Shown piece by piece: positions 333 to 24,025 of a DNA stretch of 33,621 bases. Position numbers and translations under genes: made by a program. Under the pieces are notes generated by a model. The model was not told the origin of the DNA. It did no database searches and saw only the letters and a list, made by a program, of their open reading frames with translations. Location: contig JANYKD010000480.1 of NCBI GenBank assembly GCA_025361735.1, positions 1 through 33,621 of the forward strand, read 5' to 3'. The DNA comes from Phycisphaerales bacterium (lineage in GTDB: Bacteria > Planctomycetota > Phycisphaerae > Tepidisphaerales > Tepidisphaeraceae). Position 1 is the first letter of the stretch. Every line of letters begins with the position of its first letter.

Positions 333-862
333 GCCAACTCCTCTCGCTGCATCGCCCGCTCCACGCAGGCGGCCAGCGTCATCCGAATGCGATGCAGTGC
401 TTTGTAAAGCGACATGGATGTGCGGCCCATCTTCTCGGCCGCTTCGTCGATGCGAACATCGCGTGCATAGGCCGCATCGACCAGTGCCCGCTGTCGCTCC
501 GGCAGTTTGCGGAGGCAGTCATCCAGTGCCTCGCGACGCGAATCCAGGGCATCCGTCGCCGCTTCGGCTTCGTCTGCAAGCAGAGCGAGTACGTCTTCAC
601 TGAACACATGCCGGTCCCGTGCCCGATCGCGGCGAAACGCCAAAGCCTCGAACCTGGCGACACCGAAAGCCCAGCGGCGGAAGTCCTCATCCGTCGCTAG
701 TTCGTCGAACTTTCGCCAAAGCACGGCCGCCACCTCCTGCATTACCTCCCGCGCATCCTCGCGGGTCGGCACCAGCGAGCGCGCAAACCCGCGTAACGCT
801 TCTTCATGATCCATGAACAGGCTCAGAAACCGATCGTGCCGCTGTTGTTCCGACGGTGTCAT
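329..862 (-). CDS. ECF RNA polymerase sigma factor
   Basis: A 177-residue sigma-70-family factor of the small ECF type. Region 2 spans about residues 10-80 (RFLSLFMDHEEALRGF, then 'FRRWAFGVARFEALAFRRDR', the core-binding and -10 recognition helices). Region 4 spans about 110-165 ('LPERQRALVDAAYARD' then the helix-turn-helix 'IDEAAEKMGRTSMSLYKAL'). The start at 862 is chosen because it has GGAGAG eight bases upstream and begins exactly at the family's usual N-terminus; a longer frame to 985 adds sequence with no sigma character. It overlaps the anti-sigma gene by the ATGA motif and is divergent from the GH59-like gene, with 121 bases between starts. It most resembles the Rhodopirellula/Verrucomicrobium-type ECF group; target genes are not evident. 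Confidence 0.9.
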   Translation of the reverse strand: MTPSEQQRHDRFLSLFMDHEEALRGFARSLVPTREDAREVMQEVAAVLWRKFDELATDEDFRRWAFGVARFEALAFRRDRARDRHVFSEDVLALLADEAEAATDALDSRREALDDCLRKLPERQRALVDAAYARDVRIDEAAEKMGRTSMSLYKALHRIRMTLAACVERAMQREELA

Positions 863-983
863 CTCATTAACTCTCCGCGCCGAAGACGGATTTGCCGGGA
901 AAACAATCCCGCCTGCGGCCTCGCCGCTGGCCCGTTCGGCAAAACAGTGCCCGTCGCGGAGAGTATATCTGAAGGACGGTGCC

Positions 984-3005
984 ATGATTGACTTGACGCG
1001 TCGGCAGTTGGGTTCGTTTCTCGTTTCGCTGTGCCTCTTGTTTCTGACCGTCAGCGGCCCGGCCTGGGGCGATCAGAACATCTCCATCGACGGCAAGCGC
1101 GAAGGGCGACGGTTCGATGGGATCGGCGCCGTCAGTGGCGGCGGTGCAACCTCCCGGCTGCTGATCGAATATCCCGAGCCCCAGCGCAGCCAGATCCTGG
1201 ATTATCTCTTCAAGCCGAACTTCGGGGCCTCCCTGCAGGTGCTGTATGTCGAGATCGGCAGCGAGTTGAACGGCACCCAGGGCTCCGAACCCAGTCACGC
1301 CCGCAGCCGCGAAGAGATGGACCATCCCAAGCCCGAGTATTTCGAGCGGGGCTATGAATGGTGGATCATGAAGGAAGCCAGGAAGCGGAATCCGGAGATC
1401 CGTTTCGACGCCACCGCCTGGAATGCGCCCCCGTGGGTTGGCGCGGGCAGCGGCGGCTTCTGGTCGCAGGACATGTGCGACTACTATGTGTCGTGGATCA
1501 AGGGCGCCAAGACCTATTCCGGCCTGGACGTGATCTACACTGGCTGCCGCAACGAAAGCGGCGTGAACATCCCCTGGGTGAAGATGTATCGCAAGACGTT
1601 GGACAACGCCGGGCTGAAGCACGTCGTCATCCATGCGTTCGACAACTGGAGACCCGAAACGAAATGGACGTTCGCCAAGGAGTTCGCCGCGGACGCGGAA
1701 CTCAAGAATGCCGTGGGCATCATTGGCAACCATGTGACCTGGAAGGGAGCGCCCGAAGGCGTTTCGCCCTCGCCGGATTATGTCCTGAACAGCGACAAGC
1801 TCATCTGGGACACCGAAGAGCACGTCTATCAGGAAGGGTTCCCCTCGGCCATCAACAAGGTCAGGGCCTGCAACGAGAACTACATCGACAACAAAGTCAC
1901 CAGCACCGTCTTCTGGCACCTGATCTCTTCCTTCTACGGCATTGAAGGCTGGTACGGCAAACATGCGATGGCGATCGCCTCATCGCCCTGGAGCGGCAAC
2001 TACGCGATGCTGCCGGAATTGTGGGGCCATGCCCACACCTGCCAGTTCACCAGGATCGGCTGGAAGTACCTGGAAGGCGAGGGGTGCGGCTACTTCAAGA
2101 GCGGCGGCAGTTACGTCACCTACAAGGCCGCCAATGGCCCGGACTACACCATCGTCATCGAAACCAAGAACGCGAAAGCCGACCAGTCCATCGCGTTCAA
2201 TCTCACCGGCGGCCTGTCCACGGGAAAGGTGTCCGTCTGGAAGAGCGACGCGGCCACGATGTTCCAGAAGCAGGACGACATCGCGCCGCAGAATGAGGCC
2301 GTCGTCCTCACGCTCAAGCCCAGTTCCATCTACACGATCACCACCACGAGCGGGCAGCAGAAGGGCGCCTATCCCGCGCCGCCGGCCGAGAAGCCCTTTC
2401 CCTTCCCGTATCACGAGAACTACGACCACTACAAAAAGACGGGCGTTCTGCCCTATTACCACTCCGACATCCACGGCGTGTTCGAGGTCGTCAACCGCCC
2501 GGACGGCAAGGGCAAGTGTGCCCAGGCCACCGTCAAATTCGCCAGAACCAAGACGCCGCTGGACGGCTTTACGGTTCTGGGCGATGCAGGCTGGAAGGAC
2601 TACCAGGTCAGTGTTGACGTGTCTTCCAGCGACGGCGGCTCGGCCGCCCTTCTGGGACGTGTCTCCGGAACCCGGGGAAAGTCACCCAAAGGATACACCC
2701 TGAAACTCGCCACTGACGGTGCCTGGACGCTCCTGGCCGCCGCCGACACGATTGCTTCCGGGCAGGAGAAGCTTGTGGACCAACCGTGGCACAACCTGAA
2801 GCTCGTATTCGAAGGCGTCACCATCAAAGCGTGCCTCGATGGCAAGCAGGTGGCCTCTGTCAGCAACAGCACCTTCACCGCCGGCATGGTGGGACTGGGT
2901 ACGCTCACCGGCGCTCCCTGTTTTGATAACCTGATCATCAACGAGGTGAACGGGGCTGTGCCCCCGCCGACGGCGTTCTTTCAGGACGATATGACGAAGG
3001 AGTAG
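984..3005 (+). CDS. GH59 galactosylceramidase-like glycoside hydrolase, secreted
   Basis: The 673-residue product resembles animal galactocerebrosidase (GALC) along most of its length: 'RRFDGIGAVSGGGATSRLL' near residue 42, then 'LDYLFKPNFGASLQ', 'RGYEWWIMKEARKRNP' and 'WSGNYAMLPELWGHAHTCQFT'. GH59 enzymes are retaining beta-galactosidases. The acid/base is expected at E191 (in CRNESG) and the nucleophile at E278 (in IWDTEEH), both aligning with the GALC catalytic sites. Residues 1-29 form a signal peptide with a twin-arginine start (TRRQLGSFL), so Tat export is possible. Residues about 490-673 look like a lectin/LamG beta-sandwich. The start at 984 is the one that places the signal peptide at the N-terminus. 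The natural substrate is unknown; a beta-galactoside glycolipid or polysaccharide is an inference. Confidence 0.88.
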   Translation: MIDLTRRQLGSFLVSLCLLFLTVSGPAWGDQNISIDGKREGRRFDGIGAVSGGGATSRLLIEYPEPQRSQILDYLFKPNFGASLQVLYVEIGSELNGTQGSEPSHARSREEMDHPKPEYFERGYEWWIMKEARKRNPEIRFDATAWNAPPWVGAGSGGFWSQDMCDYYVSWIKGAKTYSGLDVIYTGCRNESGVNIPWVKMYRKTLDNAGLKHVVIHAFDNWRPETKWTFAKEFAADAELKNAVGIIGNHVTWKGAPEGVSPSPDYVLNSDKLIWDTEEHVYQEGFPSAINKVRACNENYIDNKVTSTVFWHLISSFYGIEGWYGKHAMAIASSPWSGNYAMLPELWGHAHTCQFTRIGWKYLEGEGCGYFKSGGSYVTYKAANGPDYTIVIETKNAKADQSIAFNLTGGLSTGKVSVWKSDAATMFQKQDDIAPQNEAVVLTLKPSSIYTITTTSGQQKGAYPAPPAEKPFPFPYHENYDHYKKTGVLPYYHSDIHGVFEVVNRPDGKGKCAQATVKFARTKTPLDGFTVLGDAGWKDYQVSVDVSSSDGGSAALLGRVSGTRGKSPKGYTLKLATDGAWTLLAAADTIASGQEKLVDQPWHNLKLVFEGVTIKACLDGKQVASVSNSTFTAGMVGLGTLTGAPCFDNLIINEVNGAVPPPTAFFQDDMTKE

Positions 3006-4092: not shown

Positions 4093-4315
4093 GCCATCTC
4101 TCCTTCGCGCCCTATTGCACCGCTTCGCATTGAGACTGGCAACAACCGACCGCGGACAAAACCGCTTAATTGGCGTAACGGGCGAATTGACTCGCGACAA
4201 CTTCTGGTGGCAGTACAGGCGAAACCGTCCCGCACTGAACTGGCGTTGCGTCCAGGTTCGAAGCTGCGTGCGTGTTAACACATCTGAAGATTTTCAGATT
4301 CTCGAAATTATTTCC

Positions 4316-4345
4316 TTGCATTCTCGTTAGAGAGTGAGGTATATT
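4316..4345 (+). promoter_or_regulatory. Candidate sigma-70 promoter of the tRNA/Ro island
   Basis: TTGCAT (4316-4321) and TATATT (4340-4345) are separated by 18 bases and lie in the only AT-rich stretch upstream of the array. The start site would be near 4352, about 275 bases before the first tRNA. All genes from 4626 to 11626 lie on this strand with only short gaps, so this is the most economical promoter, though internal promoters cannot be excluded. Confidence 0.5.
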
Positions 4346-4442
4346 AACGAATCGGCCACTGTGTGCCGATAAAGGACAGCAGATGCAGCTTCGATGGTAT
4401 CATAATCCGCTATCAAGCCCAGTGACGATTAAGAACGTCGCT

Positions 4443-4619
4443 GGCGCATTTGATATGCGCCTGCACTGTTAGCTCCCTGCCTCACTTGGCCGGGAGTTCT
4501 TCCCGGCGAAATGGAATCCATTTTTCAACTCCCGGGAAATAAGTAGACCAGTATGTCGTGGTCTATTTGTCGCAGTGCCTGCGCCGATCATACTTGATCG
4601 CAACTGCCTTATTTGGCAG
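4443..4619 (+). ncRNA. Structured leader: five consecutive small hairpins
   Basis: Five perfect inverted repeats follow one another: GGCGCAT/ATGCGCC (4443-4461), GCCGGGA/TCCCGGC (4489-4507), TAGACCA/TGGTCTA (4544-4565), CGATCA/TGATCG (4585-4600) and CTGCC/GGCAG (4604-4619). The last ends six bases before the first tRNA. None has a terminating T-run. They could be processing signals, an antitermination leader or a separate small RNA; the sequence does not decide. Confidence 0.4.
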
Positions 4620-4625
4620 AGAGTT

Positions 4626-4699
4626 ACGCCCGTAGCTCAGTTGGCAGCAGCGCCGCGCTTACATCGCGGAGGTCGCCGGTTCGATCCCGGCAGGGCGTA
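4626..4699 (+). tRNA. tRNA-Val(TAC)
   Basis: Full cloverleaf: acceptor ACGCCCG/AGGGCGT (one G-A mismatch at 7:66), anticodon stem CCGCG/CGCGG with loop CTTACAT, T-arm GCCGG-TTCGATC-CCGGC, discriminator A. CCA is not encoded. First gene of the array. Confidence 0.93.
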
Positions 4700-4738
4700 C
4701 TGAAAGAGCTCCAGAATCGAGCCCCGCGGAGATCGTGC

Positions 4739-4810
4739 GCGCTGGTAGCTCAGAGGTAGAGCAGTCGCTCGATAAGCGACAGGTCGCAAGCTCGAAACTT
4801 GCCCGGCGCA
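4739..4810 (+). tRNA. tRNA-Ile(GAT), with C33 and C54
   Basis: Acceptor GCGCTGG/CCGGCGC, D-stem GCTC/GAGC, anticodon stem GTCGC/GCGAC with loop TCGATAA (C at 33), T-loop CTCGAAA (C at 54 in place of T). The stems are intact, so it looks maintained, but the nearly universal U33 and T54 are both replaced. Confidence 0.85.
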
Positions 4811-4813
4811 TAC

Positions 4814-4886
4814 GCACTGGTAGCTCAATCGGATGAGTCCCGGTCTACGAAGCCGGAGGATGAAGGTTCGATCCCTTCCCAGTGCA
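4814..4886 (+). tRNA. tRNA-Arg(ACG)
   Basis: Acceptor GCACTGG/CCAGTGC, anticodon stem CCGGT/GCCGG with loop CTACGAA, T-arm GAAGG-TTCGATC-CCTTC, discriminator A. Only three bases separate it from the preceding tRNA. Confidence 0.92.
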
Positions 4887-4919
4887 TTAGTATATGTGAT
4901 AGTTGTATTTACGACATTT

Positions 4920-4991
4920 GCACTCGTAGCTCAACGGCAGAGTCTCCGGCTCTTAACCGGGTGGTTGCGGGTTCGAATCCTGCCGGGTGCA
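4920..4991 (+). tRNA. tRNA-Lys(CTT)
   Basis: Acceptor GCACTCG/CGGGTGC (with one G-T pair), anticodon loop CTCTTAA on stem TCCGG/CCGGG, variable loop TGGTT, T-arm GCGGG-TTCGAAT-CCTGC, discriminator A. Confidence 0.92.
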
Positions 4992-5013
4992 TTGAGGTGA
5001 TGTGTGGATAAAC

Positions 5014-5086
5014 GGTCCAGTAGCCCAACGGCAGAGGCACCTGGCTCAGAACCAGGCAAGTGCAGGTTCGAATCCTGCTTGGACCA
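5014..5086 (+). tRNA. tRNA with Leu anticodon CAG on a short-variable-loop body
   Basis: Acceptor GGTCCAG/TTGGACC, anticodon stem CCTGG/CCAGG with loop CTCAGAA, variable region only CAAGT, T-arm GCAGG-TTCGAAT-CCTGC, discriminator A. Normal bacterial tRNA-Leu has a long variable arm; this one does not, and its D-arm (TAGCCCAACGGCAGAGGC) is closer to Gln-type tRNAs. Amino-acid identity is therefore uncertain. Confidence 0.88.
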
Positions 5087-5096
5087 CTGACAACGC

Positions 5097-5171
5097 GTTG
5101 CGGTAGCTCAACCGGACCAGAGCGCGGCTCTCCGAAGGCCGAGGTTGAAGGTTCGATCCCTTCCCGCGACA
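5097..5171 (+). tRNA. tRNA-Arg(CCG)
   Basis: Acceptor GTTGCGG/CCGCGAC, D-stem GCTC/GAGC, anticodon stem CGGCT/GGCCG with loop CTCCGAA, T-arm GAAGG-TTCGATC-CCTTC, discriminator A. Confidence 0.92.
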
Positions 5172-5180
5172 TGACAGCAC

Positions 5181-5254
5181 GGGCCCGTCGTCCAACTCGG
5201 GAGGACCCCTGGCTTGCACCCAGGTGATGAGGGTTCAAATCCCTTCGGCGTCCA
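5181..5254 (+). tRNA. tRNA-Ala(TGC), imperfect acceptor stem
   Basis: D-stem GTCC/GGAC, anticodon stem CCTGG/CCAGG with loop CTTGCAC, T-loop TTCAAAT. The acceptor GGGCCCG pairs with the 3' strand only if one C (5249) is bulged. The anticodon and arms are otherwise normal. Functionality is less certain than for its neighbours. Confidence 0.8.
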
Positions 5255-5257
5255 TTG

Positions 5258-5331
5258 GCTCTGATAGCCCAATTGGCAGAGGCGCGTGATCGAGAATCAC
5301 GTTGATGCAGGTTCGAATCCTGCTCAGAGCA
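5258..5331 (+). tRNA. tRNA with Leu anticodon GAG, short variable loop and C33
   Basis: Acceptor GCTCTGA/TCAGAGC perfect, anticodon stem CGTGA/TCACG with loop TCGAGAA (C33), variable region TTGAT (five bases), T-arm GCAGG-TTCGAAT-CCTGC, discriminator A. It combines two oddities: a class I body for a leucine anticodon and loss of U33. Confidence 0.87.
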
Positions 5332-5342
5332 TGAACGGCAGG

Positions 5343-5415
5343 GCCGCAGTAGCCCAACGGCAAAGGCGGCGGTCTCAAGAACCGTGGAGTGCGGGTTCGA
5401 ATCCCGCCTGCGGCA
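5343..5415 (+). tRNA. tRNA with Leu anticodon CAA on a short-variable-loop body
   Basis: Acceptor GCCGCAG/CTGCGGC perfect, anticodon stem GCGGT/ACCGT with loop CTCAAGA, variable region GGAGT, T-arm GCGGG-TTCGAAT-CCCGC, discriminator A. Third Leu-anticodon tRNA in this array without a long variable arm. Confidence 0.88.
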
Positions 5416-5517
5416 ATGGAAGTAATGTGGAATTCAGAATGTGGAATGTGGCCAGAAAGGAAGTCACCAATGAGTAGTACCCCTGATTCAAGTTCATCCG
5501 GCTCCGGCTCAAAACCC

Positions 5518-5603
5518 GGAGGGTTAGCCTAATTGGCAAGGCATCCGCCTCGAAAGCGGACACGGCTCACAAGGCCCTGGGGGTTCGAGTCCCTCACCCT
5601 CCG
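5518..5603 (+). tRNA. tRNA-Ser(CGA)
   Basis: Class II tRNA with a long variable arm. Acceptor GGAGGGT/ACCCTCC perfect, anticodon stem TCCGC/GCGGA with loop CTCGAAA, T-loop TTCGAGT, discriminator G as expected for serine. Confidence 0.93.
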
Positions 5604-5629
5604 CTGCGTTTGGCGTATGACGCCGACAC

Positions 5630-5716
5630 GGAGGGTTGGCAGAGCGGTTTATCGCGCCGCGGTGCTAACGCGGATCCCTGGCAACGGGGACAGAGGTTCG
5701 AATCCTCTACCCTCCG
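5630..5716 (+). tRNA. tRNA-Ser(GCT)
   Basis: Class II tRNA. Same acceptor sequence as the neighbouring Ser gene (GGAGGGT/ACCCTCC), anticodon stem CCGCG/CGCGG with loop GTGCTAA, long variable arm, T-arm AGAGG-TTCGAAT-CCTCT, discriminator G. Confidence 0.93.
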
Positions 5717-5756
5717 CTGATGAAAAGGATGGCAGACGCGAGTGTCTGCCCAACTG

Positions 5757-5830
5757 GGTTCGTTAGCTCAGAAGAGAAGAGCGCCAGCTTGTCACGCTGG
5801 AGGCCATGGGTTCAAGTCCCATACGAACCG
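5757..5830 (+). tRNA. tRNA-Asp(GTC)
   Basis: Acceptor GGTTCGT/ACGAACC perfect, anticodon stem CCAGC/GCTGG with loop TTGTCAC, T-arm ATGGG-TTCAAGT-CCCAT, discriminator G as expected for aspartate. Confidence 0.94.
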
Positions 5831-5841
5831 CTGGAATGTTT

Positions 5842-5913
5842 GGGTCGGTAGCTCAATCGGTAGAGCGGCGGTTTGAAGCACCGCGGACGCAGGTTCAACT
5901 CCTGCCTGGCCCA
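5842..5913 (+). tRNA. tRNA-Phe(GAA)
   Basis: Acceptor GGGTCGG/CTGGCCC (two wobbles), anticodon stem GCGGT/ACCGC with loop TTGAAGC, T-arm GCAGG-TTCAACT-CCTGC, discriminator A. Confidence 0.93.
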
Positions 5914-5966
5914 CTGAGAGGAATGAGGAAGGATGAATGCGGAATGCGGAATGAGCAAAAGAGAAT

Positions 5967-6041
5967 GCGCCGGTAGTTCAGTGGCACGAGAACGCCGCCT
6001 CGCCACGGCGGAGGTCGCGGGTTCAAATCCCGCTCGGCGCT
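5967..6041 (+). tRNA. tRNA-Gly(GCC) with C33
   Basis: Acceptor GCGCCGG/TCGGCGC, D-stem GTTC/GAAC, anticodon stem CCGCC/GGCGG with loop TCGCCAC (C33), T-arm GCGGG-TTCAAAT-CCCGC, discriminator T as expected for glycine. Confidence 0.9.
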
Positions 6042-6067
6042 TTGAGGCAGTGATGGATCTTGAGAAT

Positions 6068-6139
6068 ACCTTTGTAGCGTAATGGTATCGCGCCCGGCTG
6101 TTAACCGGAAGATTGCAGGTTCGAATCCTGCCGAAGGTG
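6068..6139 (+). tRNA. tRNA-Asn(GTT)
   Basis: Acceptor ACCTTTG/CGAAGGT (one wobble), anticodon loop CTGTTAA on a CCGG/CCGG stem, T-arm GCAGG-TTCGAAT-CCTGC, discriminator G. Confidence 0.92.
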
Positions 6140-6144
6140 CTGAT

Positions 6145-6217
6145 ACGCCGGAAGCTCCAACGGTGGAGCGCCCGCCTCCAAAGCGGGAAGCGACAGGTTC
6201 GATCCCTGTGCGGCGTG
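6145..6217 (+). tRNA. tRNA-Trp(CCA)
   Basis: Anticodon stem CCCGC/GCGGG with loop CTCCAAA, D-stem GCTCC/GGAGC, T-arm ACAGG-TTCGATC-CCTGT, discriminator G. The acceptor ACGCCGG/GCGGCGT has a G-G mismatch at 7:66, and positions 8-9 read AA, so the usual U8 is missing. Confidence 0.88.
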
Positions 6218-6270
6218 CTTGACGAGGCGTAACGGTGGCGGTGTGGAACCCCATCGCGTGCGCCAGCGCC

Positions 6271-6295
6271 AGGCGGAGAGACAACAACTCCGCCT
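6271..6295 (+). other. Spacer hairpin between tRNA-Trp and tRNA-Cys
   Basis: AGGCGGAG (6271-6278) and CTCCGCCT (6288-6295) form a perfect 8-bp stem with a 9-base loop in the 85-base spacer. No T-run follows, so it is more likely a processing or pausing element than a terminator. Confidence 0.4.
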
Positions 6296-6302
6296 CGCTT
6301 CT

Positions 6303-6374
6303 GACGACGTGGCCGAGTGGTGAGGCGCGAGACTGCAATTCTCGCTGACGCTGGTTCGACTCCAGCCGTCGTCT
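6303..6374 (+). tRNA. tRNA-Cys(GCA)
   Basis: Acceptor GACGACG/CGTCGTC perfect, anticodon stem CGAGA/TCTCG with loop CTGCAAT, T-arm GCTGG-TTCGACT-CCAGC, discriminator T as expected for cysteine. Confidence 0.94.
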
Positions 6375-6376
6375 TT

Positions 6377-6450
6377 GTGGCCGTAGCTCAACTGGACAGA
6401 GCGCCGGGTTGTGACCCCGGTTGTTGTGAGTTCAAGTCTCACCGGTCACC
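6377..6450 (+). tRNA. tRNA-His(GTG), no encoded G-1
   Basis: Acceptor GTGGCCG/CGGTCAC, D-stem GCTC/GAGC, anticodon stem CCGGG/CCCGG with loop TTGTGAC, T-arm GTGAG-TTCAAGT-CTCAC, residue 73 is C. The base before position 1 is T, so the extra G-1 that most bacteria encode for HisRS recognition is absent. Only two bases separate it from tRNA-Cys, and the next start codon is 21 bases downstream. Confidence 0.92.
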
Positions 6451-6471
6451 CTTTTGAAGAAGGAGTTGGAT

Positions 6472-6705
6472 ATGAAAAGCCCGACGATCAACACGTACCC
6501 GGCCGTGCTGCATGTGCGGTTTGGCGGGAAGAGCTTCGACGTGCCGCTCGCGTGCCTGGATGTAAACCCGGCCACCGACGACCGGCTCATCAAGCGCACC
6601 CTGGCCGCGCACCTGGAAATCCCGGAATCACAACTCCGTGAATATGTGCTTGACCGGCATCCCAATGGCAACCTGACGCTCCGGCCGATGGCGGTCTTTG
6701 GCTGA
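6472..6705 (+). CDS. Ubiquitin-like beta-grasp small protein (77 aa)
   Basis: The product is 77 residues, ubiquitin-sized, and its predicted order is a beta hairpin ('AVLHVRFGGKSFDVPLA', about 11-27), a helix ('TDDRLIKRTLAAHLEI', about 35-50), then further strands ('EYVLDRH', 'NLTLRPMAVFG'). It ends in a C-terminal glycine (AVFG). The start at 6472 has AAGAAGGAG about eight bases upstream, directly after the 3' end of tRNA-His, so tRNA processing would leave a short leader. A ThiF/E1-like gene is encoded later in the same unit (10985), the usual partner for activating such a C-terminal Gly. The ubiquitin-like fold is inferred from size, pattern and context. It has one terminal Gly, not the Gly-Gly of ubiquitin or ThiS. 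It could alternatively be an RNA-binding small domain. Confidence 0.7.
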   Translation: MKSPTINTYPAVLHVRFGGKSFDVPLACLDVNPATDDRLIKRTLAAHLEIPESQLREYVLDRHPNGNLTLRPMAVFG

Positions 6706-6720
6706 CGATGACAAACGGCA

Positions 6721-6898
6721 CGCTCGCGAGCGGCTTGCTCGGTCCGTACCCAACGACAAGAGCATACAAACTGGTACGCCGCGGTTTCATACGCCGCGGC
6801 TGAGGTTCGAATCCTTACACCCCCTTTCCGACTTAGATTGGGGGGTGGTTAGAAACTGCTCCTGCAACTCGTACGGATCGGCCAGCCGCCCGCGAGCG
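6721..6898 (+). ncRNA. Y-RNA-like RNA 1 with permuted tRNA domain (anticodon loop CAT)
   Basis: Outer stem: CGCTCGCG (6721-6728) with CGCGAGCG (6891-6898), GCGGCT (6730-6735) with AGCCGC (6884-6889), and GGTCCGTAC (6741-6749) with GTACGGATC (6871-6879). A conserved internal loop (CCAACGACAA opposite CTGCAACTC) leads to an inner stem GAGCA/TGCTC (6760-6764, 6857-6861). Inside is a tRNA in permuted order: an anticodon-like arm with loop TTCATAC (anticodon CAT), T-arm TGAGG-TTCGAAT-CCTTA, 3' acceptor CACCCCC, a 15-base loop, then 5' acceptor GGGGGTG. No proper D-arm follows. It lies just downstream of the ubiquitin-like gene. Bacterial Y RNAs bind Ro proteins through such a stem and carry a tRNA-like module; a Ro-like gene lies 1.5 kb downstream. 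Confidence 0.8.
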
Positions 6899-6933
6899 GA
6901 CCACAACGCGAAAGAAAAGGATGAATGTGATCT

Positions 6934-7113
6934 GAGCGAATCGAACGCGCCGTTCCGTACCCAACGGCATGAGCCTACAAACACCAGAAGCGGTGGTTGC
7001 GGGTTCGAGTCCCGCCGTGGGCTTTTCTACCGATCGCCCACGTAGCTCAATTGGACAGAGCACCGAAAAGTTTGCTCTTGTGACTTGTACGGAATGGCGC
7101 GTTCGGTTCCCTC
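6934..7113 (+). ncRNA. Y-RNA-like RNA 2 with permuted tRNA domain (opened at the anticodon arm)
   Basis: Bases 6938-6960 pair with 7087-7109 in a nearly continuous 23-bp stem with only G-T wobbles as imperfections, and GAG/CTC extends it. The internal loop (CCAACGGCAT opposite TTGTGACTT) and inner stem GAGC/GCTC (6971-6974, 7074-7077) match the other copies. The tRNA domain reads T-arm GCGGG-TTCGAGT-CCCGC (6999-7015), 3' acceptor CGTGGGC (7016-7022), a 13-base loop, 5' acceptor GCCCACG (7036-7042, perfect complement) and D-arm GCTC-AATTGGACA-GAGC (7045-7061). The variable loop TGGTT equals that of the array's tRNA-Lys. The break in the tRNA lies in the anticodon arm, where only CCG (7063-7065) can pair with CGG (6991-6993). 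Confidence 0.85.
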
Positions 7114-7120
7114 GGCTCTA

Positions 7121-7282
7121 GCGGTGATACAGCCTGCGCCCAACGGCAGAAGCATACATACATATGCAGGTTCGAATCCTGCCATTTCCCCCATCGGGGA
7201 ATGTAGCCAAATGGATAGGCACCTGATTGAGATTCAGGCGTGACAACGCAGGCTTGTGCGACTTGCGTGGGCTGTTCACCGC
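7121..7282 (+). ncRNA. Y-RNA-like RNA 3 with permuted tRNA domain (anticodon loop GAG)
   Basis: Outer stem GCGGTGA (7121-7127) with TCACCGC (7276-7282) and CAGCCTGCGC (7130-7139) with GCGTGGGCTG (7265-7274). Internal loop CCAACGGCAG opposite GTGCGACTT; inner stem AAGC/GCTT (7150-7153, 7252-7255). The permuted tRNA has T-arm GCAGG-TTCGAAT-CCTGC (7166-7182), 3' acceptor CATTTCC, a short loop, 5' acceptor GGGAATG (7197-7203), D-arm GCC-GGC (7206-7220) and then a full anticodon arm CCTGA-TTGAGAT-TCAGG (7222-7238, anticodon GAG with U33). Here the break is in the variable region, unlike copies 1, 4 and 5. The bases after the 3' acceptor read CCCA, which could be a discriminator plus CCA, possibly by chance. 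Confidence 0.85.
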
Positions 7283-7307
7283 ATTTGTTGTGAATTCGGA
7301 AAGACGA

Positions 7308-7466
7308 AGATCCCGCTCGTACCCAATGGCACGAGCATACAAACATCCGCTTCTAACGGAGAGGTTACAGGTTCGAGTCCTGTCGCGCCCATTGATGTCG
7401 ATACGGGCGCGTAGCTCAATTGGCAGAGCACTTGATTGGCTTATGCGACTTGTATGAGCGGGATCT
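7308..7466 (+). ncRNA. Y-RNA-like RNA 4 with permuted tRNA-Arg(TCT) domain
   Basis: Outer stem of 15 bp (7308-7322 with 7452-7466, one wobble). Internal loop CCAATGGCAC opposite ATGCGACTT; inner stem GAGC/GCTT (7333-7336, 7439-7442). The permuted tRNA is complete: anticodon stem TCCG/CGGA with loop CTTCTAA (7350-7356, anticodon TCT), variable AGGTT, T-arm ACAGG-TTCGAGT-CCTGT (7367-7383), acceptor CGCGCCC plus A73 (7384-7391), a 13-base linker, acceptor GGGCGCG (7405-7411, perfect), TA, D-arm GCTC-AATTGGCA-GAGC and A26 (7430). Joining 7430 to 7345 would give a normal tRNA-Arg. Its 3' end lies 36 bases before the vWA start codon. Confidence 0.87.
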
Positions 7467-7501
7467 CCATTTATGAGAGCGATCAACGAAAGGTCGGCGA
7501 C

Positions 7502-8350
7502 ATGTGGAACATCAGAAATCTATTTCGTAAAGAGAACACACCGATCAAAGAGAACGCACAGACCCTGGGCAACCTGAACAGCCTGGACCTCGTCTTCGTG
7601 GTTGACACCACGGGCAGCATGAAACCGTTTCTCGACGCCGCCCGCCGACAGATGCTGGAAATGATCCGCTCGGCCGTGGCGGCGGCTGACGTGCAGTTGC
7701 GGCTGGGCCTGGTGGAATACCGCGACCATCCGCCGCAGGACAAGCTCATCTATCGCGTCCATGCCTTGGACACGGTGGATGCGCTGCGCCGGGTCATCAA
7801 CGGGCTGACCGCCGAGGGCGGTGGCGATGAACCCGAGGCCGTGCTGGATGGCATGCTGGCCGCCTGCCGCGAGATGGCGTGGGCACCGCATGCCCGCCGC
7901 CTGGCGGTGCTTGTTGGCGATGCGCCGCCGCACGGCGTTGGTGCCCGCGGCGATCAGTTTCGCCAGGGCTGCCCTTGTGGCCAGACGATTGAAAGTGTCA
8001 CCGCCGCCGCCGAGGAAGCTCGTGTGACGCTGTATTCCCTGGGTCTGACGCCCGCCGTCGCGGATTCATTCAAACGCCTCGCGCACTACACGGGCGGCGA
8101 GTTCTTCCCGGCCGGTCATGGTGACGCGGCCGTCGAGAAGCTCAGGGAAATCATCGTGGCCGAGTTCGGCAACCTCCAACTGGATGGCCAGGTGCTCGGC
8201 GAATGGAAGTCTGATGGCGAAGACTTTGCGATCGACGCGACAGCTCAGAAACTGGCGATCGCGCCCGGTGCGGTCTCAGCCTCCCTCGTGCGTCTCGGTG
8301 CCCGGCGATTGCTGAGTCAGCCGCAGGGCGAACTCGTAGGAGTTACGTGA
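7502..8350 (+). CDS. von Willebrand factor A domain protein
   Basis: A 282-residue cytoplasmic protein made almost entirely of one vWA domain (about residues 28-215). The metal-ion site D35-T-T-G-S39 is intact ('VVDTTGSM'), followed by 'LRLGLVEYRDHPPQD', 'GGGDEPEAVLDGM' and 'LAVLVGDAPPHG', the form seen in vWA domains of alpha-kinase-type (VwkA-like) proteins. 'FRQGCPCGQT' near 165 is a conserved Cys pair. The start at 7502 has AAAGG nine bases upstream and lies just after Y-RNA-like gene 4. The Ro-like gene follows 42 bases downstream, and that protein has its own vWA domain. A partner or assembly factor for the Ro particle is inferred from this context. No enzymatic motif is visible. Confidence 0.88.
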   Translation: MWNIRNLFRKENTPIKENAQTLGNLNSLDLVFVVDTTGSMKPFLDAARRQMLEMIRSAVAAADVQLRLGLVEYRDHPPQDKLIYRVHALDTVDALRRVINGLTAEGGGDEPEAVLDGMLAACREMAWAPHARRLAVLVGDAPPHGVGARGDQFRQGCPCGQTIESVTAAAEEARVTLYSLGLTPAVADSFKRLAHYTGGEFFPAGHGDAAVEKLREIIVAEFGNLQLDGQVLGEWKSDGEDFAIDATAQKLAIAPGAVSASLVRLGARRLLSQPQGELVGVT

Positions 8351-9895
<1,545 letters not shown>

Positions 9896-9900
9896 TAACC

Positions 9901-9932
9901 GGCGTGGCACGATCGAAAGGTCGTGCCACGCC
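9901..9932 (+). terminator. Strong hairpin after the Ro-like gene
   Basis: GGCGTGGCACGA (9901-9912) and TCGTGCCACGCC (9921-9932) form a perfect 12-bp stem with an 8-base loop, six bases after the stop codon. No T-run follows, so it may protect the 3' end of the mRNA or attenuate rather than fully terminate, separating the Ro message from Y-RNA-like gene 5. Confidence 0.55.
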
Positions 9933-9964
9933 TTGAACCGAATGGTCCGATGAACTTCAAGACT

Positions 9965-10097
9965 AAACCGGGCGCTGCGCCCAACCGCAGAAGCTTACAA
10001 ACTCACAGGCTGTGAACCTGTACCATGTTCGCAACGGTTGGCGAAAGCCACCGATTCACTTGCTTCTGGAACTCGCGTAGCGCCCGGTTTGCCTTTT
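9965..10097 (+). ncRNA. Y-RNA-like RNA 5, reduced tRNA domain (anticodon loop GTG), ends in T-run
   Basis: A 16-bp outer stem (9965-9980 with 10075-10090, one wobble) is followed by TTTTT at 10093-10097, which looks like an intrinsic end. The internal loop (CCAACCGCA opposite TGGAACTC) and inner stem GAAGC/GCTTC (9990-9994, 10062-10066) match the other copies, as does TTACAAAC after it. Inside is a hairpin ACAGG-CTGTGAA-CCTGT, a canonical anticodon loop for GTG, then a minimal T-arm-like stretch (TTCGCAA). Next comes an acceptor-like helix CGGT(T)GGC/GCCACCG capped by a GAAA tetraloop. The D-arm is not recognisable. It sits between the Ro-like gene and the next gene, the classical Y RNA position. 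Confidence 0.82.
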
Positions 10098-10112
10098 TCC
10101 GTGGGACGAAAC

Positions 10113-10982
10113 ATGGCTCGTAACCGGAACGTCAACCAGGCTCTCGATCATCTGGCGGCTGTGGAACATCAATTCCTCGCCAGCCGGTTTCTCGCGCCGG
10201 TGATTCGCGGCCGGAAGGTGCAGGTCCGCATCGCCGGCATCCGCTGTCAGCTTCGGGTTGCGCCGGAGGACTTCCAAGGCTGGGGCCTGTTCCGTCCGCG
10301 GTCGTACTCGGCTGCGGTGCTGGACCGTCCGGCACAACTGGCCGAGCGCCGCCGCTATCTCGATCTGTTTCCGGCCCTATCCGCAGTGCTCTGCTGTCAG
10401 GATGGGACCGACTGGCTGGCGCTCCCTGCCCAGTCCGACAACCGCTTCCAGATCCACGGGATGGTCTGCGTGCATCTGGCCGACGAGGTCGATCGGTTCG
10501 ACACCGTTCGCATTCGTTTCGATGGATCGAGCTTCTGGTTCGATCAGCCCGACCCTCGGGCCGATCCGGGAACCGGCTTGTACCTGCGGCAGAATCTCTC
10601 GCGACTGGTCGATCCCCAGCATTTGAGTCGACCCGGCCTGACAGCGCCGCAGGTCGCCGCTTATGCGATCACGTACGCTGAGCGAATCCGCCAGACGATC
10701 GCCAACCAGCACCAACAGGCCGAGTATCGGCTGGCGGGCGCGCTGCGTCATGCCGGCGCCCGACTGAGCGACTTCGTCGAGCGCGGCGACGTCTATCGCG
10801 TCAGTTACGACGTCGACGGCAGTCGCCACACCAGCGTCGTGCGGAAGGACGATCTGACCATCCAGAGCGCCGGCATCTGCCTGTCGGGCGAGGACGAGAA
10901 CTTCGACCTGCACAGCCTCATCGGCGTTCTGCGCGAAGGTCGGCAGGGAGGATTGCTTCTCCGAATGAACCCCGAGGATTGA
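10113..10982 (+). CDS. Conserved-looking protein of unknown family in the Ro/Y RNA unit
   Basis: A 289-residue soluble protein; I do not recognise the family. The N-terminal part (MARNRNVNQALDHLAAVEHQF) is helical. The middle (about 60-190) is rich in beta strands and aromatic residues ('FDTVRIRFDGSSFWFDQP', a Cys-Cys pair in 'SAVLCCQDGTDWLAL'). Residues about 200-240 are a long helix with Gln/Arg repeats, and the C-terminus ('GDVYRVSYDVDGSRHTSVVRKDDL', then 'DENFDLHSLIGVLREG') looks like a small beta-barrel plus helix. No E2 active-site pattern is clear. It starts 15 bases after the T-run of Y-RNA-like gene 5 and is followed two bases later by the E1-like gene, so it is probably co-translated with it. 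It could be an E2-like or adaptor protein for the ubiquitin-like pair, or an RNA-binding component. Confidence 0.75.
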   Translation: MARNRNVNQALDHLAAVEHQFLASRFLAPVIRGRKVQVRIAGIRCQLRVAPEDFQGWGLFRPRSYSAAVLDRPAQLAERRRYLDLFPALSAVLCCQDGTDWLALPAQSDNRFQIHGMVCVHLADEVDRFDTVRIRFDGSSFWFDQPDPRADPGTGLYLRQNLSRLVDPQHLSRPGLTAPQVAAYAITYAERIRQTIANQHQQAEYRLAGALRHAGARLSDFVERGDVYRVSYDVDGSRHTSVVRKDDLTIQSAGICLSGEDENFDLHSLIGVLREGRQGGLLLRMNPED

Positions 10983-10984
10983 CC

Positions 10985-11626
10985 ATGGCCGGCAAACTGC
11001 ATCATGAAGAGATCTATCGCGGCCGGGAGCAACTCGCCCGACTCAGCACACTCCGCGTCGCCCTCTGCGGCGCTGGCGCTCTCGGCTCGAACCTGGCCGA
11101 CAATCTCACGCGACAGGGGTTTTCCCGGCTGCGCGTCATCGACCACGACCGCGTCGAGGATCACAACGTCAGCACCCAGCTGTACGGCGAATCCGAGGTC
11201 GGCCTCTGGAAAGTCGAAGCCCTGCGCAACCGCATCTTCCGCAGCGTCGGCATCGAGATCGAACCCGTCCGCAAACAGTTGACGGCCGACAACGCCCGCA
11301 TCCTGCTGAAAGATGTGGACCTCGTCATCGACACCTTCGACAACTCCGCCTCGCGATGTCTCGTACAGGAGCAATGCCGCAGACAGGCCACGCCCTGTCT
11401 GCACGTCGGCCTGGCCGCCGACTACTGCGAGATCATCTGGGACGAGCGTTACCGCGTTCCTGCCGACACCGCGGCCGACATCTGCGACTACCCCCTGGCC
11501 CGAAATCTTGTGCTGCTCGCCACGGCGATCACTTCGGAAACCGTCATGGAATTCGCACTGAGCGGCATCCGCAAGGACTGGTCAGCCACATTGCGCGATC
11601 TGGCCCTCCGCTCCATGGACGTGTAG
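10985..11626 (+). CDS. ThiF/MoeB/E1-like adenylating enzyme
   Basis: A 213-residue E1-type enzyme that would adenylate the C-terminal Gly of a ubiquitin-like protein. The nucleotide-binding loop is G29-A-G31-A-L-G34 after strand 'LRVALCGA'. 'VIDHDRVEDHNVSTQLYG' (51-68), K76 in 'GLWKVEAL', and 'VIDTFDNSASR' (D117/D119/N120) match the ThiF/E1 core. C167 in 'DICDYPLA' is a candidate thioester cysteine. It lacks the CxxC zinc pairs and rhodanese domain of MoeB. It begins two bases after the upstream gene and ends the unit. The 77-residue ubiquitin-like protein earlier in the unit is the obvious candidate partner. Whether the product is conjugation, thiocarboxylate (sulfur transfer) or something else is open. 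Confidence 0.85.
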   Translation: MAGKLHHEEIYRGREQLARLSTLRVALCGAGALGSNLADNLTRQGFSRLRVIDHDRVEDHNVSTQLYGESEVGLWKVEALRNRIFRSVGIEIEPVRKQLTADNARILLKDVDLVIDTFDNSASRCLVQEQCRRQATPCLHVGLAADYCEIIWDERYRVPADTAADICDYPLARNLVLLATAITSETVMEFALSGIRKDWSATLRDLALRSMDV

Positions 11627-12036
11627 ACGCGAGCGCATATGCGTTTGCCTGCTTCGCTCCGGCGCGGCAACTTTTTCGGGAGAACACCAAGGCCGCCAAA
11701 CGTAGCACAGCCGTCTCGGTTGTGTCCGAGCACTTTGCCACAGGCGAGACGCTGTGCTACCAACTCTGCTCCCGAAAAGACTGCCGCGCCGCTTCGTTCC
11801 ACAAAATCGTGAATTGAACGATTTTACCTGATACTGCGATCGCACCGCGCATATAATCCCAACTGAGAGTCCGATTGAACATTGGCTGTCGAAGCCAGCA
11901 ACCTCTCAAACCCGCCGGTTCATGAGCGGCTGTTGCTTGCTCAACTCCCCTCTCAAGACGACTGCACACTGGGCTTTCCTGCCCCTGCCTCAGGTCGCAT
12001 CGGCATCAAGCGAGCCAACGCGCGACCGGAGGTATT
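11627..12036. other. Gene-free interval after the island
   Basis: No supported coding frame. It holds a long nested hairpin (11661-11790) and then the leader of the radical SAM gene, whose GGAGG lies just before 12037. Nothing else was recognised at 11800-12020. Confidence 0.55.
11661..11790. repeat. 130-base nested inverted repeat / possible structured RNA
   Basis: GGCGCGGCA and CTTTTTCGGGAG on the left (11661-11682) pair with CTCCCGAAAAG and TGCCGCGCC on the right (11769-11790). Inside, GTAGCACAG (11702-11710) pairs with CTGTGCTAC (11752-11760) and CGTCTCG (11712-11718) with CGAGACG (11745-11751); TGTG/CACA closes the tip. It lies 35 bases after the E1-like gene and could terminate the island in both directions, or be a small mobile inverted-repeat element. 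It lacks the Y-RNA internal-loop motif. Confidence 0.55.
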
Positions 12037-13815
12037 ATGCAACTGGCCTTTTGCGAACCCATCACCATTCCCCGAGCGCCCGTCCACCCGCTGGGCACGC
12101 GGGCCAACATCCTGTTGACCAGTGTCTTTGGCCCCTACGCCCAGGACGATGAGTACGGCAGCCGCACCATCAACCCCATGGAACTGCACCACAACCAGGT
12201 GACCCGCGTGCAAGGGCCATTCTCCTTGCGCATGTTCCATCGCTCCTGGGGACTGCTGTTCATCCAGGCCAACATCGCCGCGCCCTGCACATGCCTGGAC
12301 TTCCCGACCCTGGATCGATTCATTGAGGAAATCCGCACGCAGAACTACGACGTGGTGGGCATCAGCGCCATCGTGCCGAACATCGGCAAGGTTCGCAAGA
12401 TGTGTGAATTGATCCGCCAATTCCTTCCGCGGGCGACGATTGTGATTGGCGGCCACATCGCCAGCCTGCCGGACCTGTCGGAGCAAGTCGACGCGGATCA
12501 CATTGTGCGTGCCGAGGGTGTCAGTTGGTTCCGCCAGTTCCTGGGCGAAGACGAGGATCAGCCCATCCGGCATCCCTTGCTGTGGAGCGGCTCGCACCGC
12601 CGGGCGATGGGCGTGTCCCTGCCGTCCGGCGCCGATAACATCGCGGCCACGCTCGTCCCCTCGGTTGGGTGCCCCGTCGGGTGCAACTTCTGCGCCACCT
12701 CGCACATGTTCGGCGGGAAGGGCCAGTTCGTGAACTTCTACAAAACCGGCGACGAGCTCTTTCGGATCATGTGCCAGTTGGAAACGCTCATGAAGGTAAA
12801 GTCCTTCTTCATCATGGATGAAAACTTCCTGCTGCAGCGGCCCCGCGCCCTGCGCTTGCTGGACCTCATGGTGGAGCACAACAAATCCTGGGAGTTGTAC
12901 GTCTTCAGCTCGGCAAACGCGCTGCGCACGTATTCGATGGAACAGTTGGTGCGCCTGGGCGTTTCCTGGGTGTGGATCGGCCTGGAAGGCGAGGCGAGCC
13001 AGTACGCGAAACTGCGCCACGCCGACACGCACCAACTGGTCCGCGAGTTGCACTCGCATGGCATCCATCTCCTGGGTTCGACGATCATCGGCCTGGAGAC
13101 CCATACCCCGGAAAATGTCGACGCCGCCATCGACTACGCGGTCAGCCACGAGACGGAGTTCCACCAGTTCATGCTCTACACTCCGACACATGGCACCCCA
13201 TTGCACGCCGAGATGTCCAGGCAGGGCGTGCTGTTGGACACGGAGGAGTTTTCCCATGCCGACACCCACGGGCAACTCCGCTTCAACTATCGCCACCCGC
13301 ATATCCCGCCGGGTGCGGAAACGGCCATCCTGCTCCGCGCCTTCACCAGGGACTACGAAACCAACGGGCCGAGTATTCTGCGGATCGTGCATACGACCCT
13401 GCAGGGCTGGCGGCGCTACAAGGACCATCCCAGCCCGCGGATCCGGGACCGATACCGCGCCCATCTGCACGGCTACTCGACCTTCGTGGCCGGAGCGATC
13501 TGGGCGGCGCGTCGCTGGTTCCGTAACAATGTGGTGGTCGCCGCAAAGATGGACGCGCTGCTGCAAGAGGTTTACAGTGTGTGCGGCCTGGTGGCACGGA
13601 TCGCAGCACCGGTGCTGGGCCGGGTCTTGCTGGTGACGTTGCATCGCGAGGATAAGCGGCTGCGCCGTGGCTGGACCCTGGAGCCGCCCACGTATTATGA
13701 TCAGAACGATCAGGCACAGGCACAGGGCCACGCCGGCGGCAGGAAAGCAACCCTGCTGCGATCGGTCAGCGCCGACGTTTCGGATCGCGTACGGCAGGCA
13801 ACGAGCGTTACGTAA
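12037..13815 (+). CDS. B12-binding-domain radical SAM protein
   Basis: A 592-residue protein. Residues about 70-170 form a cobalamin-binding-like Rossmann fold ('YDVVGISAIVPNIGKVRKMCELIRQ', 'IVIGGHIAS') without the DxHxxG histidine. The radical SAM domain follows, with C212-x3-C216-x2-C219 in 'VGCPVGCNFC', then 'FFIMDENFLL' and 'WVWIGLEGE', strands of the SAM barrel. The C-terminal ~150 residues are helical. GGAGG precedes the start. It is followed 46 bases later by the giant activase-type gene, and the two probably form an operon. The family contains many methyltransferases and lipid-modifying enzymes; the substrate cannot be read from sequence. Confidence 0.88.
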   Translation: MQLAFCEPITIPRAPVHPLGTRANILLTSVFGPYAQDDEYGSRTINPMELHHNQVTRVQGPFSLRMFHRSWGLLFIQANIAAPCTCLDFPTLDRFIEEIRTQNYDVVGISAIVPNIGKVRKMCELIRQFLPRATIVIGGHIASLPDLSEQVDADHIVRAEGVSWFRQFLGEDEDQPIRHPLLWSGSHRRAMGVSLPSGADNIAATLVPSVGCPVGCNFCATSHMFGGKGQFVNFYKTGDELFRIMCQLETLMKVKSFFIMDENFLLQRPRALRLLDLMVEHNKSWELYVFSSANALRTYSMEQLVRLGVSWVWIGLEGEASQYAKLRHADTHQLVRELHSHGIHLLGSTIIGLETHTPENVDAAIDYAVSHETEFHQFMLYTPTHGTPLHAEMSRQGVLLDTEEFSHADTHGQLRFNYRHPHIPPGAETAILLRAFTRDYETNGPSILRIVHTTLQGWRRYKDHPSPRIRDRYRAHLHGYSTFVAGAIWAARRWFRNNVVVAAKMDALLQEVYSVCGLVARIAAPVLGRVLLVTLHREDKRLRRGWTLEPPTYYDQNDQAQAQGHAGGRKATLLRSVSADVSDRVRQATSVT

Positions 13816-13861
13816 GTGGACAATCAGGTCGGGCTAAGCCAGCATGGCGGAGGGTGGCCCA

Positions 13862-23632: not shown

Positions 23633-24025
23633 ATGGGCAAGCACCAATCTCATTTTGGTGATCGTTCTGAGTTTGATCGTTTTGAAAGTGACTTCCGAAA
23701 TTCCCGGACCAAGCGTCAGGATCACAAGACCCAGCAACTGTGCCGACAGGCGTTCCGCGTCCTGACCGGCGCGTTGATGGACCTGGCACACGACCCCGTC
23801 CTCGCTGACCTGGTTGTGGACGGCGTCGATCCCGCGCCAAACGCCTCGCGGCTGCTGGTGCGCGTGTACACAACCGCGCCGGACGTTCCGGCGGCCGATA
23901 TCTACTGCCACCTTGCCGAGGTGACGCACCGGCTGCGCGCCGAACTGGCCAGCGCCATCACCCGCAAACGTGCCCCGGAACTGGCCTTTCTCGTGGTGCC
24001 GATGCAGTCAGGAGGTGATTTATGA
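23633..24025 (+). CDS. rbfA: Ribosome-binding factor A
   Basis: A 130-residue KH-like protein. 'QDHKTQQLCRQAFRVLTGALMDLAHDPVLADLVVDGVDPAPNASRLLVRVYTT' (split over residues 29-80) and the ending 'LRAELASAITRKRAPELAFLVVP' match RbfA, which binds 16S precursor helices during cold-sensitive maturation of the small subunit. The N-terminal 28 residues are Ser/Asp/Arg-rich and extra to the core. GGAG precedes the start. Its stop overlaps the rtcB start (ATGA), and the rtcB ribosome site AGGAGGTGA lies inside this gene, so the pair is translationally coupled. Confidence 0.85.
   Translation: MGKHQSHFGDRSEFDRFESDFRNSRTKRQDHKTQQLCRQAFRVLTGALMDLAHDPVLADLVVDGVDPAPNASRLLVRVYTTAPDVPAADIYCHLAEVTHRLRAELASAITRKRAPELAFLVVPMQSGGDL

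Follow-up and report, generated by a model that had tools for sequence, protein, structure and literature searches.

Linkage of Ro, a tRNA array, a putative ubiquitin-like pair and Y RNAs that resemble tRNAs and ribosomal sites in bacteria and phages

The window, a 33,621-nt stretch of DNA from a Phycisphaerales bacterium (contig JANYKD010000480.1), contains an island in which tRNA genes, a small putative ubiquitin-like protein (Ubl), Y-RNA-like genes, a vWA protein, a Ro-like protein, a protein here named U290 and a ThiF-like enzyme all lie on the plus strand. Why do these parts stand together, and what might they do? Two points seem well supported by sequence comparison: the genes of this module are linked, and its Y RNAs mimic RNAs of translation. 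Each Y RNA appears to be a common Ro-type closing stem that carries one of several inserts: a permuted tRNA, an ordinary tRNA, an anticodon hairpin or, in cyanobacteria, parts of 23S rRNA. Linkage, closing stem, mimicry and structural conservation of the mimics can all be read from the sequences. The Y RNAs, probably carried by Ro, may be decoys for enzymes that attack the copied tRNA and rRNA sites, which would shield protein synthesis; the chance of this is put at about one half.

The island and its neighbourhood in other genomes

All parts of the 7-kb, one-strand island listed in an earlier note were recovered by ARAGORN, Rfam, Pfam and repeat analysis. The array and the proteins, with start codons picked by eye, are as follows.

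4626..6451, plus strand: array of 18 tRNA genes (ARAGORN; Rfam RF00005, 18 of 18 over the gathering score)
6472..6705 (ATG), plus strand: small protein of 77 residues, putatively ubiquitin-like (alignment, stop-codon check)
7436-8350 (open reading frame; ATG at 7502), plus strand: vWA protein, an optional partner (Pfam VWA_4)
8393..9895 (longest frame from 8354), plus strand: protein of 500 residues with a Ro60/TROVE fold (predicted fold)
10113..10982 (listed frame from 10038), plus strand: U290, 289 residues (predicted fold)
10985..11626, plus strand: ThiF/E1-like adenylation enzyme (Pfam ThiF, 106.9 bits; PDB matches to E1, ThiF and UBA5)

To compare neighbourhoods, loci were taken from several sources: 21 Ro loci of one genome scan, viral loci, a 595-kb phage, a cyanobacterial plasmid, regions reached independently via the RNA motif described below, and four additional Ro regions. 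Neighbours were scored in 52 Ro loci, counting only genes on the strand of Ro and leaving out the distant phage Ro loci L123-L134; L083/L113, L044/L096, L126/L127 and L129/L130/L132 are duplicates. Where the sequence reaches 1.5 kb or more upstream of Ro (44 loci), Ubl is found on that side in 37. Of the 35 loci that extend at least 7 kb beyond Ro, 27 have U290 and 25 have ThiF downstream. Only one relative, the ThiF of L104, is on the opposite strand, and partner genes are missing in some loci, for example L010, L012, L014, L027 and L029. A relative of the vWA protein is near Ro also in L102, L118 and L121.

At least ten tRNAs, tRNA-like Y RNAs excluded, are found within 10 kb of Ro in 21 of 64 loci, and 14 of the 64 have ThiF in addition. 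Apart from the window, these 14 comprise two loci from cyanobacteria and 11 from viruses (with two duplicates, L126/L127 and L130/L132). This is the combination that the earlier note had suggested looking for in other genomes. Among 22 viral loci, ThiF is present in 19, U290 in 16 and Ubl in 8. The earlier note had taken the parts for one unit, a view that an unconserved neighbourhood would have undone; the counts above agree with it. It should be mentioned that L123-L134 are distant Ro relatives (24-37% identity) on large viral contigs with up to 46 tRNAs, and that ThiF occurs in 9 of these 12 loci. The module also lies on the 69-kb Dolichospermum plasmid pAfl69 (L044 and L095-L096), where Ro spans the start of the record.

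The array runs in the order Val, Ile, Arg, Lys, Leu, Arg, Ala, Leu, Leu, Ser, Ser, Asp, Phe, Gly, Asn, Trp, Cys, His. With 18 co-directional genes in 1.83 kb, it is a dense tRNA array by the ARAGORN calls. The metagenome-assembled genome (MAG) of the window, a 7.5-Mb draft that is 84% complete, has 52 tRNA matches, of which 34 lie outside the array; this means that the array is an extra set.

The predicted fold of the 500-residue protein has a helical-repeat domain followed by a vWA domain, in the arrangement of Ro60. Profile search gave E 1.5e-4 to two PDB TROVE sequences, with vWA_Ro60 in 3 of 14, and the Pfam TROVE model had no match anywhere in the genome of the window at E 0.1. Its closest named relatives are from planctomycete MAGs (67-70% identity). 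The protein is thus predicted to be an RNA-binding protein of the Ro family, in agreement with the identity proposed earlier.

ThiF has an invariant GxGxxG-type loop, and this, together with the Pfam and PDB matches given above, identifies an E1-type adenylation domain. Its best NCBIfam hits are adenylyltransferases of the ThiS/MoaD type, all below the curated cut-offs. Assignment to the PRTRC system is not indicated, as ThiF scored 41.3 against the required 144.75 bits and the 77-residue protein had no NCBIfam hit. In 17 of 18 aligned relatives of the small protein, that of the window included, the conserved Gly of the motif RPxA[VI][YF]G is the exact C-terminus. These sequence features suggest that the small protein and ThiF are likely a ubiquitin-like tagging pair. 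U290 is predicted to have an OB-fold-like domain and a C-terminal domain of one helix, four strands and one helix with an invariant Cys256 (GICLSG); the fold search covered mainly residues 86-153.

Closing stem and inserts of the Y RNAs

The Y-RNA-like genes of the window are marked by five copies of a 32-nt repeat, at 6740, 6951, 7130, 7313 and 9971.

6744..6876, plus strand: Y RNA 1, Ro-type stem, T arm, acceptor-like hairpin and hairpin with a CAU loop (repeat; fold z -3.1; Met(CAT) on circular closure)
6955..7092, plus strand: Y RNA 2, permuted tRNA with T arm, 7-bp acceptor and D arm (YrlA 47.5 bits; acceptor pairs 7/7)
7130..7274, plus strand: Y RNA 3, permuted, tRNA-Leu(GAG)-like, anticodon arm intact (circular closure; fold z -4.0)
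7315..7459, plus strand: Y RNA 4, permuted, tRNA-Arg(TCT)-like (Rfam YrlA 43.8 bits; circular closure)
9970..10085, plus strand: Y RNA 5, Ro-type stem, possible His(GTG) anticodon hairpin and GAAA-capped stem (repeat; fold z -4.9)

All five have the 5' side CCCAAY(N5)RAGCNTACA in common, and their 3' sides are partly complementary to it. Compared with dinucleotide shuffles, they gave z values of -2.2 to -4.9, and 0 to 5 of 200 shuffles folded equally well. Upon circular closure, three of four showed one main anticodon, namely Met(CAT), Leu(GAG) and Arg(TCT); Y RNA 2 has no constant anticodon in this test. The Rfam YrlA model matched Y RNAs 2 and 4 over their full length (E 9e-9 and 1e-7) and a third RNA partially (20.5 bits). 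Since even the best score is below the gathering score of 69 for RF02553, the RNAs are named Y-RNA-like and not assigned to that family. They are Y RNAs in the wider sense of paired ends that close a stem around a tRNA-like module, with a qualification for two of them. In the minimum-energy fold of Y RNA 4 the two ends pair separately. In that of Y RNA 5, which stands just upstream of U290 and whose tRNA-like module is reduced to an anticodon-like hairpin, the anticodon loop is paired otherwise.

The closing stem is also found in cyanobacteria, Abditibacterium (L013), a deltaproteobacterium (L011), the 595-kb phage (L042) and IMG/VR contigs. The strict motif, searched in 292 cyanobacterial genomes, gave 55 hits in 18 of them, as against two hits for the reversed pattern. 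Ro likewise occurs in 18 of these genomes, and 14 have both (hypergeometric P 3e-17). Across 294 genomes of the phylum of the window, any motif hit was seen in four genomes, three of them with a single hit each, compared with four control hits.

From these loci 94 Y RNAs were extracted, and 92 were kept after removal of two sequences longer than 300 nt; 29 further motif hits, some of them real, were dropped because they fell below the stem score or duplicated a hit in another register. Mechanical sorting of the 92 gave 36 with an ordinary-order tRNA insert, 24 permuted or perhaps permuted, 16 without a T arm, 11 with the sarcin-ricin loop (SRL) and GTPase-associated centre (GAC) of 23S rRNA, and 5 with helices 69-71 (H69-71). 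The ordinary class includes L013 13790 and L042 11882 through a chance T-arm match, and those of its inserts that bear the label "normal?" form no more than 5 of the 7 acceptor pairs. Three tRNAs with a long variable arm (L015 9790, L019 8549 and L021 9727) are labelled permuted or perhaps so, whereas ARAGORN reads them in ordinary order.

ARAGORN called tRNAs in 34 of the 92 RNAs, including 29 of the 36 ordinary-order ones; 20 shuffled versions of the whole set gave none. One was even called as "Pyl". In the permuted class, with the order T arm, acceptor, linker, acceptor, D arm, a 7-bp acceptor is present in 15 of 20 RNAs (0.11 expected). Anticodon hairpins were found in 35 of the 76 non-rRNA inserts, and their loops show 17 different triplets; the shuffles had a mean of 1.1 such hairpins and a maximum of 4. 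T-arm-like loops were excluded from this count, but the loop type TTCAAAA slips through, in the shuffles too. In six RNAs of 77-79 nt (L088, L095, L043, L103, L106 and L107) an anticodon-like hairpin is the sole insert. Only L088 passes the strict hairpin test: the Asn(GTT)-like RNAs of L043, L103, L106 and L107 are one pair short, and L095 fails at the base after the anticodon.

Some inserts are of other kinds. The insert of the Y RNA at L043 13801-13951 contains GGAGGGATA twice, each time in a hairpin-like setting, and matched neither tRNA nor rRNA. Phage Y RNAs (L083 8894-8991; L114 7737-7850 and 8012-8101; L116 9301-9369) have a recurrent hairpin insert, TTCGGAT-like or similar, and those at L106 6160-6437 and L086 8637-8863 apparently carry long inserted repeats.

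The SRL-GAC class comprises 22 distinct RNAs from cyanobacterial loci, in which the 12-nt core of the SRL is followed downstream by the GAC. In 23S rRNA the SRL lies about 1.5 kb further on than the GAC, yet it comes first in the Y RNA, that is, in reverse order. The exact GAC string is present in 18 of the RNAs, and the GAC region is aligned in all 21 rows of the alignment, from which L106 was omitted owing to a long insert. A profile of the class matched 23S rRNA at E 1.3e-11; the SRL part alone was weak (E 0.07), though 12-13 nt are exact. Outside rRNA operons, the Rfam bacterial 23S model gave 49.1 bits (E 3e-13) inside L015. On a Kovacikia plasmid the SRL-GAC RNA at L043 17206-17416 reached 55.1 bits, above the gathering score of 50, so that annotation pipelines may report a partial 23S rRNA there. 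The consensus fold includes the GTPase-centre hairpins. In the 21 aligned RNAs, 98.7% of the cells are paired and 12 of 40 pairs are changed on both sides, which was equalled in 0 of 500 shuffles (slid structures, 31-52%); these figures are favoured, since the structure was derived mostly from the same alignment.

Nine RNAs (L020, L023, L089, L091, L095, L097, L099, L100 and L102) form the H69-71 class, and five of them are 81-92% identical to 23S rRNA over 25-31 nt. The H69-H71 profile, an imperfect one with the chance row L014 in and L102 out, matched 23S at E 9.5e-7. Ten SRL-GAC RNAs lie inside tRNA arrays. In 7 of the 10 loci with both, an SRL-GAC RNA is within 200 nt upstream of U290, the same place as Y RNA 5 in the window.

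Regulation and related systems

In Anabaena, TrcR represses a 26-tRNA operon (trn) via TGTAGTAT at the -10 box, and some translation-blocking antibiotics relieve this repression (PMC10272220). The same box was found 115 times in 36 cyanobacterial loci, compared with 13 times for the reversed motif; the latter is quoted as the control because a control of 60 motifs (mean 27.5) included the motif itself (maximum 115). At 19 places the box follows TTGACA at about promoter spacing; in every case a tRNA array (11) or Ubl (8) lies no more than 700 nt further downstream. It also stands 19-27 nt upstream of six SRL-GAC RNAs. From this placement, the module of the cyanobacterial loci, as distinct from that of the window, is predicted to belong to the translational-stress response. 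The tRNA supply that the earlier note had suggested finds an analogy in the stress-induced trn operon, which shares with the module a long tRNA array and this operator; the text of that paper contains none of the terms Ro60, Y RNA, TROVE and rsr (PMC10272220).

In the window, a scan of 4200-12100 gave two sigma-70 promoter-like and seven terminator-like sites, numbers no higher than those of shuffles (1.6 and 7.3); none of the promoter-like sites was on the plus strand in 4200-11626, in a scan of little power.

A close known relative is the bacterial Ro (Rsr)-YrlA ribonucleoprotein, including the rsr-yrlBA-rtcBA RNA repair operon. It has the Ro fold, and its Y RNA joins a closing stem to a tRNA-like domain ordered T arm, acceptor, D arm. 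The present module differs: a locus holds many Y RNAs, whose inserts vary (tRNAs in ordinary order, anticodon hairpins alone, SRL-GAC, H69-71), and has a tRNA array, Ubl, U290 and ThiF besides. The RtcB RNA ligase of the window, at 24022-25143 on the same strand, is 12 kb downstream of the island and thus not in an rsr-yrl-rtcBA operon, and tblastn with it found no RtcB in 79 other fetched loci. Just before it, an open reading frame at 23633-24025 has a weak match to RbfA, under the cut-off. The other neighbours of the island are a GH59 galactocerebrosidase-like enzyme upstream of the array (813-3005) and, downstream (12037-17980), a B12-binding radical SAM protein and a BadF/DUF2229 CoA-enzyme-activase-like protein.

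The tRNA array units of mycobacteria are similarly dense (PMC5966550, PMC12803027), and an antidefence role was proposed for them (PMC12803027); these papers are without the terms TROVE, Ro protein, Y RNA and RtcB. The compact E1/Ubl systems (UBA5-UFM1, PRTRC, CBASS Cap2) share the ThiF adenylation domain. UFM1 ends in a single Gly, as does the small protein of the module. The module differs from them in that its ThiF is below the PRTRC and 6A-MBL cut-offs and is tied to Ro and RNA genes.

Possible role of the mimics

The earlier note had proposed surveillance and repair under the control of a protein modifier. As the Y RNAs are varied mimics of translation RNAs, the likely purpose moves to decoy or bait, and the set of copied sites is the clue to such a mechanism. 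VapC toxins cut anticodon loops, and of 13 from M. tuberculosis studied by 2019, two cut the SRL; VapC-mt11 requires an intact anticodon stem-loop (PMC6459853). In anti-phage immunity, cleavage of anticodons has been described as a widespread mode of attack (PMC7824862). A decoy fits the bare anticodon hairpins, the variety of anticodons, the carriage by phages and the spare tRNAs.

The steps might be as follows. In cyanobacteria, translational stress would lift a TrcR-type repressor and thereby switch on the tRNA array, Ubl and some of the Y RNAs. Ro would bind the common stem and hold the varied inserts outward. Anticodon nucleases and rRNA-attacking toxins would be spent on, or caught by, the RNA copies, and the array would replace cleaved tRNAs. 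The small protein, ThiF and U290, with its RNA-binding-type fold and invariant Cys, may tag Ro or the caught enzyme. In phages, its use would be against toxins by which the host stops translation.

Several observations weigh against the decoy mechanism. Neither the GTPase centre nor H69 is known as a toxin cut site, and copies of these two suit factor binding better. An intact anticodon hairpin is present in only 5 of 20 RNAs of the permuted class. When short SRL, GAC and H69 strings were searched for as exact matches, phage and non-cyanobacterial loci gave no Y RNA of the rRNA type, and the copies seen there are of the tRNA type only. Neither kind of rRNA mimic was found in the genome of the window: in this 84% complete MAG the SRL 12-mer occurs once, in the 23S gene. 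Four of the 18 motif-bearing cyanobacterial genomes are without Ro, four with Ro are without the strict motif, and among the 294 genomes of the phylum a motif cluster was seen only in that of the window. The 77-residue protein matches no known ubiquitin-like family in Pfam, NCBIfam, PHROGs or PDB; control by a protein modifier is conjectural, and the putative E2-like reading of the U290 C-terminal domain is taken from the topology of the prediction. Finally, deletion of trn left the kasugamycin and β-N-methylamino-L-alanine (BMAA) resistance of an Anabaena trcR mutant unchanged (PMC10272220).

A more specific form of the decoy, itself rather improbable, is a bait-and-tag immunity: Ro would display miniature RNA baits, copies of anticodon arms, of the GTPase-factor site of the ribosome and of helix 69, a docked enzyme would be marked with the small protein by ThiF and U290 and removed, and the array would restore the cut RNAs, in bacteria against toxins and in giant phages against suicide nucleases of the host.

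Somewhat more doubtful is a tether or gate as in Deinococcus, where Y RNAs would join Ro to PNPase or another nuclease for decay of structured RNA, the tRNA-like part binding the nuclease and the other inserts picking substrates. The permuted order T arm, acceptor, D arm and the Rfam YrlA matches are indeed the known YrlA layout (PMC8394870, PMC7790460), but a single tether needs neither bare anticodon hairpins, nor 23S copies, nor many anticodons, often several per locus.

A third explanation is a brake: under stress, EF-Tu, EF-G, L11/L12 or other ligands of the ribosome would be titrated by the RNAs, and translation would slow. The main contacts of eEF2 with rRNA are three, the SRL, helix 43 (the GTPase centre) and helix 69 (PMC9830224), and just these regions are copied. 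However, binding of elongation factors is not expected for bare anticodon hairpins and permuted tRNAs, and a phage, which needs translation, is an improbable carrier of a brake on it; such a brake seems unlikely.

It is still less probable that Ubl and ThiF are a sulfur carrier system like TtuB/TtuC or MoaD/MoeB, which would thiolate the tRNAs of the array with the Y RNAs as its controls: the top NCBIfam hits of ThiF are of that type, but all are under the cut-offs, and the small protein ends in a single Gly, not GG. That the inserts are relics, decayed tRNA and rRNA fragments collected beside a mobile tRNA array, might account for the weak acceptor stems of ordinary-order inserts, the long insertions in some and the plasmid and phage carriage, but is very improbable in view of the covariation, the uniform closing stem, the recurrence over phyla and phages and the reverse-order fusion of two distant 23S sites.

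Mimicry of tRNA by Y RNAs was already known. New here is a Y RNA chassis into which pieces of the ribosome and bare anticodon loops fit as interchangeable parts. The decoy mechanism would give Ro, Y RNAs and cryptic tRNA arrays a testable role, the protection of translation, and would link them to a possible bacterial ubiquitin-like pathway and to counter-defence by phages. The RNAs may also serve biochemistry as natural minimal mimics of ribosome sites, the SRL-GAC RNA being conserved and structured.

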